Assembly (NCBI RefSeq): GCF_013004105.1
Contig: NZ_CP053085.1
Span: forward strand, 1,612,001 to 1,676,000
Source: Gemmatimonas groenlandica
GTDB lineage: Bacteria > Gemmatimonadota > Gemmatimonadetes > Gemmatimonadales > Gemmatimonadaceae
Direction of reading: 5' to 3'
DNA: 64,000 nt
Positions 19,740 through 28,931 of the stretch are shown here, piece after piece (positions within the stretch are counted from its first letter, which is position 1; each line of letters opens with the position of its first letter). A program made the position numbers and the translations under genes. The notes beneath the pieces were generated by a model. It did not search any database and had not been told where the DNA came from. It saw only the letters and a list, made by a program, of their open reading frames with translations.

Positions 19740-20677
19740 GCGCTGAAATCCTCGTCGAAGGCGACGAGCTGGCGGAACTCCCGCACGCGCGCGTCGATAT
19801 CGGCGCGCGTGATTTCCAGCAGCCGTCCATTCGAGAACTTCTCGACGGCGAATGAGCCCATGGCCGAGCCGACGACGACGGCGCGACGCATGGAGGCATC
19901 GCTCAGGTCGCCGCTGGCCGCGAGTGAGCCGATGAACCCACCGGCGAAGGAATCGCCGGCGCCGGTGGGATCGAAGACCGACTCGAGCGGATATGCAGGC
20001 GCGAAAAACACACTGTCTCGCGTGAACATGAAGGCGCCATGCTCGCCTTTCTTGATCAGCACGTGCTTCGGTCCCTTGTCGAGAATCCAGCGCGCGGCCT
20101 GCACGAGATTGCTGTGCTCGGTGAGCTGGCGCGCTTCTCCGTCATTGAGCGTGATCAGATCGACGTGACCGAGCAGCTCGATGAGCTCCGGGCGACGCGA
20201 CTCGATCCAGAAATTCATGGTATCGCACGCGACGAGGCGCGGCTTCTCCACCTGCTCGAGCACCTGCAGCTGGAGGCGCGGATCGATGTTCGCGAGGAAC
20301 ACGAAGGGTGCCTTGCGGAACTGATCGGGAATGTTCGGGCGAAAATTGGAGAACACTCCGAGATGCGTCTCGAGCGTTTCGGCGGAGTTGAGATCGTGGC
20401 GATAGCGGCCACGCCACCGGAAACTCGAGCCGCTCACCTTTTCGAGGCCGGCGAGATCGACGCCGCGAGCGGCCAGCGGCTGGAGCAACTCGATGGGATA
20501 ATCGTCCCCGACCACACCCACGAGCTGCACGGGCGCGAAGTGCGACGCCGACGACGAGAAGTAGGTGCCCGACCCGCCGAGCACATCATCGGCCTTGCCG
20601 AACGGCGTCTCGACGGAATCGAGTGCCACGGAACCGACAACGAGGACCTGGCTGGCGGTACTGGGGAAACTGCTCAC
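19736..20677 (-). CDS. PfkB-family carbohydrate kinase
   Basis: The 313-residue kinase has the ribokinase fold with DPTGAGDSFAGGFIGSLAA, holding the anion hole and the catalytic Asp. The N-terminal region VLVVGSVALDSVETPFG and GGSGTYFSSSASHF matches sugar or nucleoside kinases of the PfkB family. The substrate cannot be assigned from the sequence. The GTG start at 20677 overlaps the argS stop; the longer open frame only shadows argS. It overlaps purM by 4 bp. Confidence 0.9.
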   Translation of the reverse strand: MSSFPSTASQVLVVGSVALDSVETPFGKADDVLGGSGTYFSSSASHFAPVQLVGVVGDDYPIELLQPLAARGVDLAGLEKVSGSSFRWRGRYRHDLNSAETLETHLGVFSNFRPNIPDQFRKAPFVFLANIDPRLQLQVLEQVEKPRLVACDTMNFWIESRRPELIELLGHVDLITLNDGEARQLTEHSNLVQAARWILDKGPKHVLIKKGEHGAFMFTRDSVFFAPAYPLESVFDPTGAGDSFAGGFIGSLAASGDLSDASMRRAVVVGSAMGSFAVEKFSNGRLLEITRADIDARVREFRQLVAFDEDFSA

Positions 20678-22326
20678 ATGCGCTCCGGCGCGGACAGTCC
20701 GAGAATGCGCAATCCGGCGGCGATGCCGAGCTGCGTGGCACGGGCGAGCACGAGGCGCGCGCGCGTGATGGCCTCGGGTTCGCCGAGGACATGATGCTTG
20801 TGGTACCAGGTGTGGCCGGCTCGCGCCGTTTCCAGCAACCACGCCGCGATGCGGTGCGGCTCGAGCGTGTCGGCCGCGCCCTTCACGGTCGCGGGGAAAT
20901 CGAGGAGCTGCTTCACGAGCTCCTGCTCGGCAGGCTCGGTGAGCACCCCGAGGTCGACGCCTTCGCCGGTGACCGTGGTCGCGTCGATTTCACCGACGCG
21001 GAAGATGCCGCACATGCGCGCGTGCGCCATCTGCACGTAGTACACCGGATTCTCTTCCGATTGGCTGCGCGCGAGATCGACATCGAACACGAGCTGCGAG
21101 TCACCCTTCCGCATAAGGTAGAAATAGCGCACGGCATCGCGACCGACTTCATCGATGAGATCACGCACGGTGACGTACGAGCCGGCGCGCTTGGAGATCT
21201 TCACTTCCTCACCACCCTTCATGACGGTCACCATCTGGTGCAACACGTAGTCGGGATAGCCCTTGGGAATCCCGATCGCGAGTGCCTGCAGACCAGCCCG
21301 CACACGCGTGATCGTGCTGTGGTGATCGGCACCCTGCACGTTGATCGCGCGGTGGTAGCCGCGATCCCACTTCGTGACGTGATAGGCGACGTCGGGCACG
21401 AAGTACGTGTAGTCTCCGCCCTTGGCCGCGCTCTTCTTCATCACGCGATCCTTGTCATCACCGAAGTCGGTAGTGCGGAGGAACAGCGCGCCCTCCTCCT
21501 CGTACGTGTGCCCCGACTGCTTCAGTCCGTCGACCGTCTTGTTGACCGAGCCATCGGTGTAGAGCGAGCTCTCGAGGTAGTACGTGTCGAACTTGACGCC
21601 GAACGCCTGCATGTCGAGGTCCTGCTCATGGCGCAGCGCGGCGACCGCGAACGCCTGCATCGCGGCGAGATCATCACACGCCGCGTCTTCCGGATGGTCG
21701 ACGACGTAGCGCTCGGCGATCTCACGGATGTAGTCGCCGTGGTATCCGCCTTCGGGAATCTCGAGCGGCGCTCCACCGATGGCGCGCACCTGCGCCTGCG
21801 TGCTCTTCGCGAGATTCGCGATCTGCGCGCCGGCGTCGTTGTAGTAGAACTCGCGATCGACCTTCCAGCCGGTGTACTCCAGCAGCGTGCTGATGGCATC
21901 GCCGAGGGCGGCCTGACGGCCGTGGCCGACGTGCAGCGGACCGGTGGGATTGGCCGACACGAACTCCACGACCACGCGTTCGCCATGGCCGATATCGAGC
22001 CGTCCGAAGGTGTCGGGCGACTCGAGAATGGTAAGCAGGCCGCGCGCTTGGAATCCGGGATCGAGGCGGAAATTCAGGAACCCCGGGCCAGCGATTTCGG
22101 CGGCCGTTACGCCGACGCTGGCTTTGTCCATCGCGGCGATAAGCGCTTCCGCAATGTCGCGCGGCTTCTTGCCGAGCGGCTTCGCGAGGGTCATAGCGAG
22201 ATTGGTCGCCCAATCTCCGAACGACGGATCACGCGGCCGCTCGAGAATGGGAGAAACGTCGTCGGGCGCACCGAGCGTGCGCGCGGCGCGCGAGAGCTCG
22301 GCGCGCAGGGCGTCGGCGTGAGTCAC
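20674..22326 (-). CDS. argS: Arginyl-tRNA synthetase
   Basis: This class I synthetase charges tRNA-Arg. It has an Add-1-like N-terminal domain, the HIGH-type motif in SANPTGPLHVGHGRQAALGD, the KMSKS-equivalent KISKRAGSYVTVRDL, and the C-terminal anticodon-binding domain with a final Met (LSAPERM). I placed the start at GTG 22326, giving 550 residues, a usual length. The open frame continues upstream into the FmdB-like gene but is Arg/Ser rich there and not credible. It overlaps the next gene by GTGA. Confidence 0.95.
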   Translation of the reverse strand: MTHADALRAELSRAARTLGAPDDVSPILERPRDPSFGDWATNLAMTLAKPLGKKPRDIAEALIAAMDKASVGVTAAEIAGPGFLNFRLDPGFQARGLLTILESPDTFGRLDIGHGERVVVEFVSANPTGPLHVGHGRQAALGDAISTLLEYTGWKVDREFYYNDAGAQIANLAKSTQAQVRAIGGAPLEIPEGGYHGDYIREIAERYVVDHPEDAACDDLAAMQAFAVAALRHEQDLDMQAFGVKFDTYYLESSLYTDGSVNKTVDGLKQSGHTYEEEGALFLRTTDFGDDKDRVMKKSAAKGGDYTYFVPDVAYHVTKWDRGYHRAINVQGADHHSTITRVRAGLQALAIGIPKGYPDYVLHQMVTVMKGGEEVKISKRAGSYVTVRDLIDEVGRDAVRYFYLMRKGDSQLVFDVDLARSQSEENPVYYVQMAHARMCGIFRVGEIDATTVTGEGVDLGVLTEPAEQELVKQLLDFPATVKGAADTLEPHRIAAWLLETARAGHTWYHKHHVLGEPEAITRARLVLARATQLGIAAGLRILGLSAPERM

Positions 22327-22369
22327 GGAGTCCGGGATGTCGAGAAAGAGTACGCGCGAACGGCTCGCG

Positions 22370-22681
22370 TCATTCGGATGACGAGGACGGCGTGCTGGTC
22401 GACGGCTTCGACTCGCTCTTGCTGTCGCTCTTCGTGTCGCTTTTGGTGCTGCTTTCGGCGGACGAGGACGCGCCACTGGTGCGCTGGTCCTTCTTCCCGT
22501 CCTTGCCGTAGTCCGTGATGTAGAAGCCGGAGCCCTTGAACAGGAGACTGGCGCCACCGGAGATGATGCGCGTGGCCACCCCCGTGCCATCGGGCGTCGG
22601 AATGCTTTCCGGAACCTCTGAGATCTTGAACCGCGCCTCGATGATGGACCCGTCGGGGCAGCGGAACTCGTAAGTCGGCAT
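22370..22681 (-). CDS. FmdB-like small protein with a lost zinc ribbon
   Basis: This 103-residue protein starts like the FmdB zinc-ribbon family (MPTYEFRCPDGS) and has the family's later segment LLFKGSGFYITDYGK. FmdB proteins normally have four cysteines in two CxxC knuckles. Here only one cysteine remains, because the second position is Gly-Ser and the second knuckle reads SIPTPDG. The C-terminal 40 residues are a low-complexity Ser/Lys/Thr tail. It may keep a structural role without zinc. It is the first gene of the long minus-strand run, just ahead of argS. Confidence 0.75.
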   Translation of the reverse strand: MPTYEFRCPDGSIIEARFKISEVPESIPTPDGTGVATRIISGGASLLFKGSGFYITDYGKDGKKDQRTSGASSSAESSTKSDTKSDSKSESKPSTSTPSSSSE

Positions 22682-22755: not shown

Positions 22756-24237
22756 TCAGGTCACCGTGAGGGTCGTGGCGCCGGGCGTGTAGATCACGGT
22801 GAGCGTGGAGAGATTGTCTGCGCGCTGCGGCGACGACTGCCAGACGCCGGCGCCGTTGAACAGGGCGCCATGATTGGGACACCGGAAGCTGGTGCCGTTC
22901 ACCACGTTCACCGTCGTGCCGGCATGAGGACAGCGCATGGAGAAGGCGGCAAAGCTGGTGGCGCTGAGGCGCGAGACGGCCACGGGCCCCCCGTTCACAT
23001 TGCCGACACTGCCGGCGACGCCGCCCACGTTGGCCAGGGCCGGCCAGGCGGCAAGGGTGACTACCAGTCCGGCGGCGGTCACGGTGAGGGTCACCGCAAT
23101 CGTGCGTGACGCCACGCCGTTACCACTGACGGTGATCGTGGCCGTGTAGCTGCCGGCGGCCAGGGCGCCGACACTCGGGCGCACGGTGAGGGTGGCCGGC
23201 GCCGTGGTCTGATTGAGTGTGGTCGTGATCCAGCCCGTCGCGCCGGCACCGTAGGACACCGTCGCGACCAACCCGGCCAAGGTGCCGCCGCCGCTGTTGT
23301 TGCACTGCACCACCTGCGCGGCCGGCGTACTGCCGACCGGCGCCGTGAAGGACAGCGCCGCTGTCGATAGTTGCAGCGCGGCCGGTGTGGTCGGATCCTG
23401 CACCAGCAGCGAGACGCTCAGTGTTTGCGCACCGTTGCTGACGCCGGCACCGGATATGGTGACGGTGGCCGTGTAGTTGCCGATCGGCAGCGTGCCGCGC
23501 TGCGCCGACAGCGTCAACGTGGAAGGCGCCGACGCCTGACTGAGCGCCAGCGACAGCCAGCCGGTACGCTGCCCCGGTCCGTACGTAAGTGTGACCGCCA
23601 GTCCACCAAGAATGCCACCGCCGTCATTCGCAATCGCGACCGTCTGCGCAGACGGGGCGTTGCCAGTGAGCGTCGTCAGGAACACGACCGACGTGCGGTC
23701 GAGACCAAGCACCGGGGGCGTGAGGGCACCGCCGATCATGAGCGATCCGTCGGCGCTCTGTCGCACGTCGAGCGCCGTGAGTCCGGCGGTCGGTTGTCCG
23801 CTCAGCCACGTGCCGTCATTCGCGAAAACGGCCTCATGATTCGGGCACCGCAGTCCGGTGGCGGTGACATCCACGATGGAGCCGCGATGCGGACACACCA
23901 GCGAGAGCGCGCGGAACTGCGCCGAACCGACGCGCTCTACCACGACAGGGGCCGAGGTGCCGGAGACGACGACGGCACGGCCGCCGACCGAGGCGAGTTC
24001 AGGAACCGTGGACGGATCGAGCCGGAAGGGCGCCGGGATGGCGTCGAGCACCTGCTCGGGGCCGCTAATGATCCCGTCGCCGCAGCCGGAAACCAGGACG
24101 CCGAGGGTCAAGGCCGAGGCCGAGGCCAGAAACTGGCGCCGATCGACCCGATGGCAGCCACCACAGGGCGACGGATCAGAGGGCGACAGCTCGGTTGCGA
24201 GCGGGGACGACGGATCAAACGACGGATCGTGAGGCAT
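22756..24237 (-). CDS. Tat-exported protein with two Rieske domains flanking two BACON-like repeats
   Basis: This 493-residue protein has a twin-arginine signal DRRQFLASASALTLGVLVSGC ending in a lipobox-like Cys at about residue 52. A first Rieske [2Fe-2S] domain has ligands C115, H117, C131 and H134 (CPHRGS, CPNHEAVF). Two Ig-like repeats follow at about residues 178-280 and 285-385. Each has a GPGQRTGWLSLALSQ or GAGATGWITTTLNQ core that resembles BACON domains. A second Rieske domain at about residues 395-493 has C436, H438, C453 and H456. All eight cluster ligands are present. An extra CGGCH precedes the Tat motif. I infer an exported redox or carbohydrate-linked electron carrier, but the partner is unknown. 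Confidence 0.85.
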   Translation of the reverse strand: MPHDPSFDPSSPLATELSPSDPSPCGGCHRVDRRQFLASASALTLGVLVSGCGDGIISGPEQVLDAIPAPFRLDPSTVPELASVGGRAVVVSGTSAPVVVERVGSAQFRALSLVCPHRGSIVDVTATGLRCPNHEAVFANDGTWLSGQPTAGLTALDVRQSADGSLMIGGALTPPVLGLDRTSVVFLTTLTGNAPSAQTVAIANDGGGILGGLAVTLTYGPGQRTGWLSLALSQASAPSTLTLSAQRGTLPIGNYTATVTISGAGVSNGAQTLSVSLLVQDPTTPAALQLSTAALSFTAPVGSTPAAQVVQCNNSGGGTLAGLVATVSYGAGATGWITTTLNQTTAPATLTVRPSVGALAAGSYTATITVSGNGVASRTIAVTLTVTAAGLVVTLAAWPALANVGGVAGSVGNVNGGPVAVSRLSATSFAAFSMRCPHAGTTVNVVNGTSFRCPNHGALFNGAGVWQSSPQRADNLSTLTVIYTPGATTLTVT

Positions 24238-25469: not shown

Positions 25470-26813
25470 CTACGGTGTACCGGTCTGGCCGCGGATCTCA
25501 CCGGCCGGGAACGTGGTCGAGTGCACGTTCACGTACGCGTTGCCCGTGCGCAGGAGCGTCATGAGCGAGTCGAGGGCGATGGGCGGCTGTCCGCTGATGC
25601 CACGGATATCGGACGCCGTGAACGTGCCCGTAAGCACGCCGCTGTTGCTCGTCTGTGTCTGCTTGACCAGATCGACGATGACGCCCGCCGTGGCGGCGAG
25701 ACCGGCCGGTGCGTGGATGTGGGCACCGGTCGGGATCGACGCAATGCCCTGATACGTGACCGTGTACGTGACCGAGGCGCCGTTGCGCGTGAAGACGGCG
25801 GCGCCGTTCGCACTGGTGGTCACGGGATTGGGACGTTCGTTGGCGCCGTTCAACAGGGCCATGATACCACTCGGCAACACATTAACCGTCCCCGACATGC
25901 CGGCGTGCAGCGAGCACACATACGGGTAGCTGCCTGCCGTGGGGAAGGTGCGCGCCACCGACGAGTTGGAGACCACCGGCACGTTGGTCGGTGCTCCCGC
26001 CGACTGAAAGAGCACATTGTGCTCGATGCTACCGAAGCTGAAGGTCACGACGCCGCCTTCGGCAATCGTGGTGGTGGCCGGCGTGAACACGTTGGCGTTG
26101 GTGGCCTGCACGGCAACAGCGGTGGCGCCGCTGATCGGCGCCGTCACGGTAATCGCCGCGCTGCCAGTGGCGGTCACGCCATCCCGCGTCAGTGAAGCGC
26201 TGACCGACGCCGCGCCCGGTGCGATGGCGGTCACGAGTCCATCGACACTGACGATGGCCTTCGTGCGATCGGCGCTCGTGTACGTCACGCCGGTGACACC
26301 GGCGATGGCGTTACCGCGCGAATCACGGGCGGTCGCGGTGAGCTGCGTGGTGCTGCCGATCGCCGGCGTCAGCGCGGCCGCTTGCACGGCCAACGTGGCG
26401 AAGCGCTGCGCGACATCGACCGCGACCGTTCCCGACACCGATCCGCTGGTCGCGGTGATCGTGGCGGCGCCATTGCCGGTAGCTGTAATCGTTGCGGTGG
26501 CGCCCGATCCCGAGACGGTGGCGACGGCGGCGTTGCTCGTGCTCCAGCTCACGGCGGCTCCGCTCAGCGTAGCCTGACTGGCGTCCTTCACCACCGCCGA
26601 GAGCGACCGCGTGGCGCCGAGCGCGGTCAGCGCACCGGTTTCGGCGGCACTGACCGCCACTGATGCCGCGACCGCGGTTGGCGTCGGCGTGGTGGTGCCG
26701 CCATCGCCGCCACTGCAGGCCGCGAGGGTGAACAGCAGCGACATCTGTGCGGCGCATGTCGCTACGCGTATCGCTGCGCGCGTGCCGCGTGCATCACGGA
26801 GTGTGGTGAACAT
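25470..26813 (-). CDS. Lipoprotein with two Ig-like (BIG2) domains, a cupredoxin domain and a CHRD domain
   Basis: The 447-residue protein starts at ATG 26813, with GGGAG upstream. It has a lipobox (LFTLAAC, Cys33). Two bacterial Ig-like domains follow, at about residues 45-225 (VSWSTSNAAVATVSG and VTYTSADRTKAIVS). A cupredoxin-like domain at about 230-315 has EHNVLF and YVCSLHAGM, giving a plausible His-Cys-His-Met copper site. The C-terminus is a CHRD domain with AHIHAPAG and NVHSTTFPAGEIRGQ. It is probably anchored in the outer membrane or periplasm. It is the last gene of the sigma-factor cassette and has a GGGAATAG motif about 70 bp upstream. Confidence 0.85.
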   Translation of the reverse strand: MFTTLRDARGTRAAIRVATCAAQMSLLFTLAACSGGDGGTTTPTPTAVAASVAVSAAETGALTALGATRSLSAVVKDASQATLSGAAVSWSTSNAAVATVSGSGATATITATGNGAATITATSGSVSGTVAVDVAQRFATLAVQAAALTPAIGSTTQLTATARDSRGNAIAGVTGVTYTSADRTKAIVSVDGLVTAIAPGAASVSASLTRDGVTATGSAAITVTAPISGATAVAVQATNANVFTPATTTIAEGGVVTFSFGSIEHNVLFQSAGAPTNVPVVSNSSVARTFPTAGSYPYVCSLHAGMSGTVNVLPSGIMALLNGANERPNPVTTSANGAAVFTRNGASVTYTVTYQGIASIPTGAHIHAPAGLAATAGVIVDLVKQTQTSNSGVLTGTFTASDIRGISGQPPIALDSLMTLLRTGNAYVNVHSTTFPAGEIRGQTGTP

Positions 26814-26880
26814 CGGTCGATCTCCCGGCGAGAATGAATCGGCGACACGGACGTGCATCGCCACCGGGAGTAGAGCGAAC

Positions 26881-26899
26881 AAGCGAGGAAACTATTCCC
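26881..26899 (-). promoter_or_regulatory. GGGAATAGTTT motif, possible ECF sigma promoter element (site B)
   Basis: On the minus strand this reads GGGAATAGTTTCCTCGCTT. It overlaps the end of the kinase-like gene and lies 68 bp upstream of the Ig-like/cupredoxin/CHRD lipoprotein start. Nearly the same sequence is found upstream of the ECF sigma gene at 32691-32710. A -35 role is inferred from position and similarity. The -10 is not clear here. Confidence 0.4.
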
Positions 26900-28931
26900 G
26901 CGGGGCGGCGGACGTCTCGAGCCGTTCGAGCCGTTCGAGTACGTCGGCCGCCGAGTGGGCCCGGTTGGCCAGGTCATTCTCCGTCATGGAAGCGATCAGC
27001 GTATCGAGCGGCAGCGGCCAGGCAATCGCGTCGGAGCGTGCATGTGCTCCAGGCTCGTCGCCCAGGCGACCGCCGATGAGCGTCACCGGCATGTCATGCC
27101 GTTGCGGCGCGTGACCGGCGAGACACTCATGCAGCACCAGTCCGAGTGCATACAAGTCGCTGGCGAATGAGGCCGAAGCGCCGATGAGCTGTTCGGGCGC
27201 GAGGTACTCCGGCGTCCCCACGGTCGCTCCGGTGACGCGTCCCGACAGAGAGGCGTCGCCGGCGCGCTGCACCGACTGCGCCCGCTGCGCGGCGTCGCGC
27301 AGCGCGCGCGCGATGCCGAAGCCCGCGAGCTTGACCTGCCCGCCGGCCACGATGCGAATGTCGCTCGGTTTGATATCGCCATGGATCACCTGCTCCGCGT
27401 GCGCGGCCGCCAGGGCGCGCAGCAGCTGCCGCGCCAGCGCGATCACGCCGTCAACTGGCAGAGTGCCCCACTGACGGAGCACGCTCGCGAGTGAAACGCC
27501 GGGCACGAACTCCGATGCCACGAACGGCACGCCGTGGTCGTCGCCCACGTCGCGAACCTGCGCGACGTGCGGATGCACGACGCGGCTCGCCTTCGCCACA
27601 TCAGCCGCGAGCAACGCGCGCGCGTCGTCGTCGAGAAAGAGTCGTTCAGGGCGGACGACGCCGAGCGCGACCAATTCTCCGCGATGGAGATCCAGGGCGC
27701 GATACAGCACGCCGCGGTCACGCTCGCCGAGTATCGCATCGATGCGATAGCGCTTGGCCACGGTGCTGCCCAGCGCGAACGGCGTCGTGTCGCTGTCCGC
27801 CTCACTCAATATCGGCAGCGGAAGCGCGCGTGGCAGCGACAGCGTGCGCTCCACGCGATGACGAAGCGGCAATATGCTGCGCGACGTCTCGGTGGCGACA
27901 GGATGCTCGGCGGTCACCAACGTGGCAACGTCAGGCGAGAGTAGCCGACTGAGCGCGACGTGATCCTGCAGATCACCACGTGCCGCGGAAAGCTCACGAG
28001 CAAGGACCTGCCGCTCGTGCTCAAGCCGCCCGGCCGGTGCGCCCACGACCCGGTGAGCGACCAACGCGGCTACGACAGCGAGCAGCAAACCGAGTGCACT
28101 GGCGATGGCCATCGCACGACGCAGCGCCGCGATGGCCGGAACCTCCACCTCGGCTCGCCGCAATACGAGGTAGCCACCGACCTCCGTGCCACCCGCGGTG
28201 TTGAGCGCCGTCGCATGCGTGATCCACTCCCGACCGTCGATCACGAGCGGGGCCTGCCCCGATGCCCTGCTCCGCACGGCCTCACGCAACGACGTATCGC
28301 GCGTCATCGTCGACGCGGCGACGTGGGCGACGCCATCGGCGGTGCGTACATAGAACACCAGCTCGCTGCCCGTGGCCGTCGCGATGTCGACCGCTAATGC
28401 GGAGTCGAGCAGTCGCGTGGCGACCAGCACACCGAACGGCGACCCTCCCGGGGCCGCCACCGGAACGGCGGTCGCCTGAAAGAGCGCGGAATCACCGGAT
28501 CCACCAAAACCGGTCATCACCTGTCCCCGGAGCGCCCCCGAAATCAGCGAGACGTTCGCGAGCTGATCGCCGGAGGCGGAGGGCTCGTCGGACTTCGCCA
28601 CCAGCATGCCCGAGGCATCGGTGATGAAGACCCACGAGGCGTCGAGCTGTTCGGCGGCTTCGAACGTCTGGTCGAGGATATCGTCGCGACGGCTTTCGGC
28701 GACGAGCGTGCGAAAGTACGGCCCTTGCACAAACACGCGCGCGCCGCCGGCGAGACTGCGGCCACGTCCAGCGAGGAGCTGCGCGACGAGGTCGGCCGAC
28801 TGCTCGAGCGCGCGCACCGCGCCTGCGGCGGCGGCGCGTCGCGCTTCGGTCCGCGCCACGGTAAACACCGTGCCCAGCACGAGGGCGACGATCGTGACCG
28901 CCCCCACGAAGACGCGCGCGGTGACGTGCAT
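26892..28931 (-). CDS. Transmembrane sensor with a degenerate Ser/Thr kinase domain (predicted pseudokinase)
   Basis: The 679-residue protein has a membrane helix at about 7-27, an extracytoplasmic sensor region (28-265) that resembles a Cache domain, a second helix at about 273-292, a helical linker, and a Ser/Thr kinase-like domain from about 392 to 670. The HRD-type motif is HGDIKPSD with Asp519 and Lys521 kept. However, the beta-3 Lys of VAIK is Gly424 (VALGVV) and the DFG Asp is Gly537 (AGFG). APE (578-580) and the F-helix Asp592 are kept. Loss of the ATP-anchoring Lys and the metal-binding Asp argues for a pseudokinase. It lies between two cupredoxin genes in a sigma-factor cassette. 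Confidence 0.85.
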   Translation of the reverse strand: MHVTARVFVGAVTIVALVLGTVFTVARTEARRAAAAGAVRALEQSADLVAQLLAGRGRSLAGGARVFVQGPYFRTLVAESRRDDILDQTFEAAEQLDASWVFITDASGMLVAKSDEPSASGDQLANVSLISGALRGQVMTGFGGSGDSALFQATAVPVAAPGGSPFGVLVATRLLDSALAVDIATATGSELVFYVRTADGVAHVAASTMTRDTSLREAVRSRASGQAPLVIDGREWITHATALNTAGGTEVGGYLVLRRAEVEVPAIAALRRAMAIASALGLLLAVVAALVAHRVVGAPAGRLEHERQVLARELSAARGDLQDHVALSRLLSPDVATLVTAEHPVATETSRSILPLRHRVERTLSLPRALPLPILSEADSDTTPFALGSTVAKRYRIDAILGERDRGVLYRALDLHRGELVALGVVRPERLFLDDDARALLAADVAKASRVVHPHVAQVRDVGDDHGVPFVASEFVPGVSLASVLRQWGTLPVDGVIALARQLLRALAAAHAEQVIHGDIKPSDIRIVAGGQVKLAGFGIARALRDAAQRAQSVQRAGDASLSGRVTGATVGTPEYLAPEQLIGASASFASDLYALGLVLHECLAGHAPQRHDMPVTLIGGRLGDEPGAHARSDAIAWPLPLDTLIASMTENDLANRAHSAADVLERLERLETSAAPRE

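Follow-up and report, generated by a model that had tools for sequence, protein, structure and literature searches.

The stretch of DNA analysed here (the window) is 64,000 nucleotides long and corresponds to G000:C1:1612001-1676000, the genome being a single contig of 5,179,092 bases. Its host, Gemmatimonas groenlandica TET16, is described in the available part of PMC7844134 as an aerobic phototroph with the menaquinones MK-8 and MK-9. On the reverse strand of the window lies a gene whose product has a Rieske domain at either end and two Ig-like modules in between (Table 1). A frame broken by a sequencing error would have made this architecture an artefact, as the original prediction pointed out, but there is no sign of one, and all 493 codons are open. 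The same prediction included export by the Tat pathway, with which the D-R-R-Q-F-L motif agrees; the claim was incomplete, as a lipobox, V-S-G-C, comes next. Since every ortholog has a cysteine at the equal position after the Tat motif, a lipoprotein is expected, and judged at the motif level by the twin arginine and the lipobox cysteine, the protein should be exported by Tat and lipid-modified. The sequence C-G-G-C-H in the signal n-region of the window protein is not conserved among the orthologs.

Table 1. Features of the twin-Rieske locus and of related genes; positions without a prefix are those of the window.
Feature	Position	Strand	Basis or remark
Rieske-BACON-BACON-Rieske gene, predicted lipoprotein, 493 aa	22756..24237	(-)	ORF, Pfam, orthologs
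Signal region, residues 1-51, twin Arg R33-R34 (D-R-R-Q-F-L)	24085..24237	(-)	
Lipobox V49-S50-G51-C52, predicted lipid-modified Cys	24082..24093	(-)	Cys in 17/17 distinct loci
Rieske domain 1, residues 71-170, ligands C115, H117, C131, H134	23728..24027	(-)	
BACON-like Ig module 1, residues 173-281	23395..23721	(-)	
BACON-like Ig module 2, residues 284-388	23074..23388	(-)	AF2 model, Z 10.3 to 3zmr
Rieske domain 2, residues 389-493, ligands C436, H438, C453, H456	22759..23073	(-)	
FmdB-like zinc-ribbon gene	22370..22681	(-)	~75 bases downstream of twin-Rieske gene
argS, longest frame	20674..22590	(-)	
Lipoprotein-like protein with two Big_2 Ig-like domains, plastocyanin-type copper domain and CHRD domain	25470..26882	(-)	
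Sensor-like region fused to serine/threonine-kinase-like domain	26892..28931	(-)	
Rieske-(BACON)6-Rieske protein of G301, 937-aa frame	L204 1-2814		
Host A-B-C-D module, followed by M20-type peptidase gene	L057 2755-4931 = C1:978.2-980.4 kb		
Array frame with heme-c-like end	L205 191-2872		C-x2-C-H
Array frames with heme-c-like end, L022, L025, L027, L028			C-x2-C-H
Array frame with heme-c-like end	L100 926-4339		C-x4-C-H
Array frame with heme-c-like end	L101 2253-4619		C-x4-C-H

Rieske domains and Ig-like spacer

The Pfam Rieske model (PF00355) matches the window protein twice (E 3.1e-16, 59.5 bits, cut-off 20.3). When the whole genome is scanned with the same model, which yields nine matches in eight proteins, both sites are found separately and both above the cut-off, at 36.2 and 30.1 bits. 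The ligand motifs read CPHRGS/CPNH and CPHAGT/CPNH, and the C-x-H and C-x-x-H pairs that define the Rieske superfamily therefore occur twice, each time in a domain above the Pfam cut-off. After 20,000 shuffles of the protein, two loose C-x-H...C-x-x-H motifs were present in none and one or more in 7. The two domains are identical to each other at 37 of 100 aligned residues, and a [2Fe-2S] cluster would be expected to assemble in each.

Several known types of Rieske protein do not fit. The disulfide cysteine pair that lies next to the ligands in bc1/b6f Rieske subunits is absent at both sites, and the models for this type remain below their cut-offs (TIGR01416, 16.5 of 97.4 bits; NF045928, 19.9 of 250 bits). 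The same is true of the model for the small subunit of arsenite oxidase (TIGR02694, 29.4 bits, cut-off 95.65). Rieske-type ferredoxins of oxygenases are cytoplasmic and have an oxygenase neighbour, but here a Tat motif and lipobox are found and the neighbours are fmdB, argS, pfkB and purM. According to the available part of PMC12445004, high-potential Rieske proteins have a disulfide between the extra cysteines; since both window sites are without them, both clusters are probably of low potential. The host genome has a bc-complex Rieske subunit elsewhere (C1:888895-889059), adjoining cytochrome b at 889278, and this cytochrome b is the single PF00033 match in the genome, at 889 kb. The subunit shares the Rieske fold and a Tat-type start with the window protein, but it has the disulfide cysteines (CPHLGC/CPCH), and the window protein has neither these nor an adjacent cytochrome b. 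Another similar protein is Synechocystis PetC3 (5cxm), with which Rieske 2 can be superimposed for 96 residues (Z 9.7, identity 29%) in a part of the structure model where confidence is low, and which was retrieved by profile comparison too. PetC3 is a Rieske protein of the plasma membrane that does not belong to the b6f complex, and it thus shares with the window protein a Rieske domain that is separate from the main bc-type complex; its solved chain, however, has one Rieske domain and no spacer modules, and it comes from a different phylum. Nothing on the redox potential of PetC3 was found in the literature searched.

The two modules between the Rieske domains are identical at 47 of 104 aligned residues. 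Neither matches the Pfam BACON model (PF13004), even at E 10, and a related module stretch in an array protein from another genome (G190) reaches 15.0 bits where the cut-off is 25; the modules are for this reason called BACON-like here. An AF2 model of module 2 with Rieske 2, made with internal homologues as extra rows, gave pLDDT values of 70-93 for the Ig blocks and 44-65 for the Rieske part, and a full-length model from four close rows had a mean pLDDT of 35.3. Modelled module 2 superimposes on BACON residues 42-130 of 3zmr with Z 10.3 and an rmsd of 2.3 over 86 residues (21% identity), a score that PapD, ASH and S-layer Ig folds equal; the VIA-align comparison is a re-inspection of Foldseek matches only. 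The two BACON-like repeats originally proposed are thus real and Ig-like in the model, and BACON-like, though not BACON by the Pfam model, is the fitting name for them. The structure prediction that had been suggested as a check had a divided outcome: it produced a good Ig module, but because the Rieske half is modelled with low confidence it does not prove a second cluster site. One further match to the module profile exists in the host genome, a 731-aa frame without a C-x2-C-H or Rieske motif.

Conservation in the genus Gemmatimonas

Among 295 genomes of the class, the matches listed include full-length relatives in the genus Gemmatimonas only, in 8 of 9 genus genomes. Seven further genus genomes from the phylum draw all have the gene, giving 15 intact copies in 16 genomes, and a contig search with the query protein (P0001) added two distinct loci from MAGs. 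Together there are 17 distinct intact loci in 18 rows (L009 and G341 look like one contig). No match for P0001, or for the protein A described below, was found on plasmids. Both Rieske motifs, the twin arginine and the lipobox cysteine are present in 17/17 distinct loci; the locus script accepted a locus only with two Rieske motifs, and none of the full-length matches lacked them. With the two PF00355 sites, this bears out the claim that all eight ligands occur in two domains, and the search for the same domain order, proposed at the outset, has turned up a genus trait with a variable number of modules. The one exception is G144, where a decayed remnant with an internal stop and a changed last ligand histidine lies at the equal position, and the gene is therefore dispensable in that species.

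Spacing is nearly constant, with 298-304 residues between the two Rieske sites in 16/17 distinct loci. In G301 the gene occupies the usual site upstream of argS but has six modules, and the gap is 740 residues wide. Pairwise dN/dS between the window gene and nine orthologs ranges from 0.07 to 0.27 in the Rieske domains and from 0.08 to 0.51 in the spacer modules; it is well below 1 in each domain, Rieske 2 is lowest or nearly so, and in most pairwise comparisons the Rieske domains change at a lower rate than the modules. These codon comparisons indicate purifying selection on both clusters. A protein that works with a single cluster, the other being vestigial, would agree with the greater divergence of Rieske 1 relative to Rieske 2, but it is extremely unlikely given that the eight ligands are kept in every distinct locus and that only the decayed G144 copy has lost one.

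The rates also bear on the second half of the original prediction, an adhesive redox protein. In such a surface protein the modules would bind polysaccharide and the clusters would be incidental or sensory. The name BACON was given for carbohydrate association in Bacteroidota, and 3zmr is the BACON domain of a GH5 xyloglucanase from Bacteroides ovatus, which resembles the window modules in its lipoprotein context and in its Ig-like fold, a fold for which unrelated proteins score just as high. However, 3zmr carries a glycosidase where the window protein carries redox domains, and the latter has no Pfam BACON match. Furthermore, no carbohydrate gene was seen beside the twin-Rieske gene, it is the Rieske domains rather than the modules that are in most comparisons the slower to change, and even for the BACON domain of 3zmr a role as membrane spacer has been proposed (available part of PMC11216935). 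A glycan-binding function is thus very unlikely.

The conserved neighbourhood lies downstream and consists of fmdB, argS, pfkB and purM, with argS found at every locus and a recognisable fmdB in between in most. In the window, argS and fmdB overlap when argS is read as its longest frame; argS probably begins further downstream, near the stretch V-T-H-A-D-A-L-R. The lipoprotein-like Big2-cupredoxin-CHRD protein is another case of an exported redox domain on Ig-like repeats. As a possible partner its gene was rejected: it neighbours the twin-Rieske gene only in the window, G116, G144 and G332 (some other loci end earlier), and so it is no conserved partner. In several genomes of the genus the sensor/kinase-like gene lies next to the cupredoxin gene or not far from it.

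The D family and the A-B-C-D module

The profile A2 was built from six tandem Rieske proteins that have no spacer, the window protein not among them; it finds both window Rieske domains with E 3.1e-34 and 7.5e-28, and a domain profile that includes the two among its seeds gives them 130 and 131 bits. By sequence, both are members of one family of Rieske lipoproteins, here called D. Relatives detected by A2 are found in 130 of the 295 class genomes at E 1e-6. The surroundings of the listed A2 matches with E of at most ~6e-30, excluding the genus-type gene, make up 51 regions, mostly of 5 kb on each side and shorter at contig ends. Three genes recur there. A encodes a membrane protein of ~205 aa with four invariant histidines (nine rows), B a membrane protein of ~170 aa with two (seven rows), and C a Tat-type exported Rieske protein of the form CPHQNTAL...FQCPKH. 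Within 5 kb and on the same strand as D, A is found in 40, B in 32 and C in 34 of the 51 regions, all three in 30 and none in 8, numbers to which the seeds contribute by construction, the A, B and C profiles having been seeded partly from these regions. Pfam matches of A and B to DUF4079, cytochrome b561, DUF2214 and CopD are all below cut-off; A is likely a b-type heme protein, and both A and B would carry heme. In the phylum genomes, where the module was searched and after which it can be called a Gemmatimonadota module, A is present in 89 of 298.

The module is widespread in Gemmatimonadota and apparently undescribed. Searches for Rieske together with Gemmatimonadetes, with BACON, or doubled in one protein found nothing relevant in the literature covered, that is titles and the beginnings of abstracts, subscription papers being mostly missing. 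The word Rieske is absent from the main texts of PMC7844134 and PMC9426454, and the available part of PMC5449189 concerns a different Rieske type. One candidate role for the module, replacement of the bc complex, was rejected: A and PF00033 occur together in 49 phylum genomes, A only in 40, cytochrome b only in 108 and neither in 101 (Fisher p 0.61, or 0.50 when the genus is left out). Cytochrome b is found in 157 of the 298 genomes and in 16/16 of the genus. Judged by the potentials of such proteins, low-potential clusters without the disulfide would also be poor acceptors for menaquinol.

The original prediction also held that Rieske domains normally occur singly or beside catalytic domains. 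This overlooks the spacer-less tandem Rieske lipoproteins of the same phylum, with A2 matches over nearly the whole tandem in 7 proteins from 6 of the 295 genomes (G118 twice, G124, G150, G190, G192 and G222). Like the window protein, these belong to the D family and have a Tat-lipobox start and two Rieske domains per chain, but a short linker takes the place of the BACON-like modules. A, B and C accompany 5 of the 7. The idea that duplication inside the genus produced the two window-type Rieske domains was judged by a tree of Rieske domains (91 rows, 107 columns, many forks open; the decayed L038 copy, L002 and L007 excluded). Rieske 1 and Rieske 2 are apart in its best topology, although a single clade is not rejected (AU p 0.296). 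On that tree, the tandem arrangement of the other di-Rieske proteins takes 4 label changes (N) and 3 (C), which makes more than one tandem origin likely, though not certain; a single common origin is not supported by the domain tree.

At none of the 17 loci does the window-type gene itself adjoin A, B or C. A D gene is in the cluster in 11 of the 16 genus genomes (G000, G090, G116, G144, G244, G301, G320, G331, G332, G341 and G346), and A-B-C without D occurs in four (G039, G133, G253 and G337). In the two of these read in detail, G039 and G133, an M20-type peptidase gene follows directly after C. It is possible, if somewhat unlikely, that the twin-Rieske protein is a substitute for the single-domain D, doubled and moved in this genus. 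In the four genomes without D it is the only close D relative; G144, the sole loser of the twin-Rieske gene, retains D, and 0/16 genomes lack both. On the other hand, all the genomes with D in the cluster except G144 also keep the twin-Rieske gene, and G182 has it without A, and without a close C or D. The pattern of substitution comes from one loss on one side, and its statistical weight is almost nil.

Heme-c-like arrays and the proposed function

The best matches to the window spacer modules outside the genus are lipoprotein-like arrays in G190 and G192, with nine and six recognised modules respectively. In both genomes the array belongs to a run of module genes (B, A, C, tandem D and array in G190; A, B, A, C, tandem D and array in G192), and its last domain has C-x4-C-H and an M-P-P motif. 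Five more array proteins among the loci covered (in G257, G193, G149, G050 and G301) have C-x2-C-H after the array. These frames were encountered through their similarity to the window protein and are not a sampled survey. Pfam cytochrome matches of the array ends (PSCyt1, E 0.27; CBB3, E 0.077 and 0.21) are all below cut-off, and it is therefore the motifs that suggest heme c at these ends.

In the reading preferred here, to which a probability of roughly 0.55 is given, the window protein is an exported, lipid-anchored electron-transfer protein, a genus-specific paralogue of D in which two D-type Rieske domains flank a stiff Ig spacer. Each [2Fe-2S] cluster would carry one electron, the anchor-side cluster exchanging electrons at the surface of the membrane, while the distal one would do so with a partner kept several nanometres away. 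An Ig module is about 4 nm long, and the usual limit for tunnelling is 1.4 nm. An extended chain would set the clusters some 8 nm apart, far above that limit, and since they would then be beyond direct tunnelling range, they may serve as separate docking sites, or the molecule may bend. Distance between the clusters seems to matter, judging by the near-constant spacing of most species and the six-module form of one. This supports the exported electron carrier with a spacer that was originally predicted: clusters and spacing are conserved, there are two to six modules, and like modules precede heme-c-like domains in other exported proteins. Lipidation, the partners and the direction of electron flow are parts of this proposal, not observations. 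The best lead for a partner is the A-B-C module as a candidate, because the Rieske domains are of the D family.

A longer reach can also be imagined, with the protein as an extracellular or outer-membrane relay whose lipid anchor would sit in the outer membrane and whose distal Rieske domain would pass electrons across a gap to a second membrane, a matrix or a mineral. The variation from two to six modules with both Rieske ends kept would suit this, as would the heme-c-like domains that terminate other BACON-like arrays. The residue after the lipid cysteine is Gly, not Asp; under the E. coli sorting rule a non-Asp residue here permits transport to the outer membrane, a rule that may not hold in this phylum. 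However, the near-constant spacing in 16 of 17 loci fits a fixed periplasmic distance equally well, and such a relay is considered unlikely.

The lipid-anchored carrier could also be seen as part of a larger system, in which A and B and the exported Rieske proteins C and D form a membrane electron-transfer complex. Some lineages would add Ig-spaced stalks to it, either Rieske-(BACON)n-Rieske or (BACON)n-heme c, and the window protein would be the stalk form of D, setting in a modular manner how far apart redox centres lie beyond the cell membrane. This picture is tentative and rather doubtful as a whole. The individual folds are known, and what is new is the spacer form of a D-family redox lipoprotein and the module behind it. 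The A-B-C-D module makes a concrete candidate for an electron-transfer complex of Gemmatimonadota that is as yet uncharacterised, and it is a more interesting object than the twin-Rieske protein alone. With its variable length, an Ig spacer set between two redox domains would serve naturally as a ruler for electron transfer beyond the cytoplasm. As the host species is cultured, gene removals are conceivable. It is worth adding that some single D proteins (L109, L099, L083 and L093) have the disulfide-type motif CPHFGC...CPCH, which is missing from their C partners, and that the expected potential of D therefore differs between lineages.
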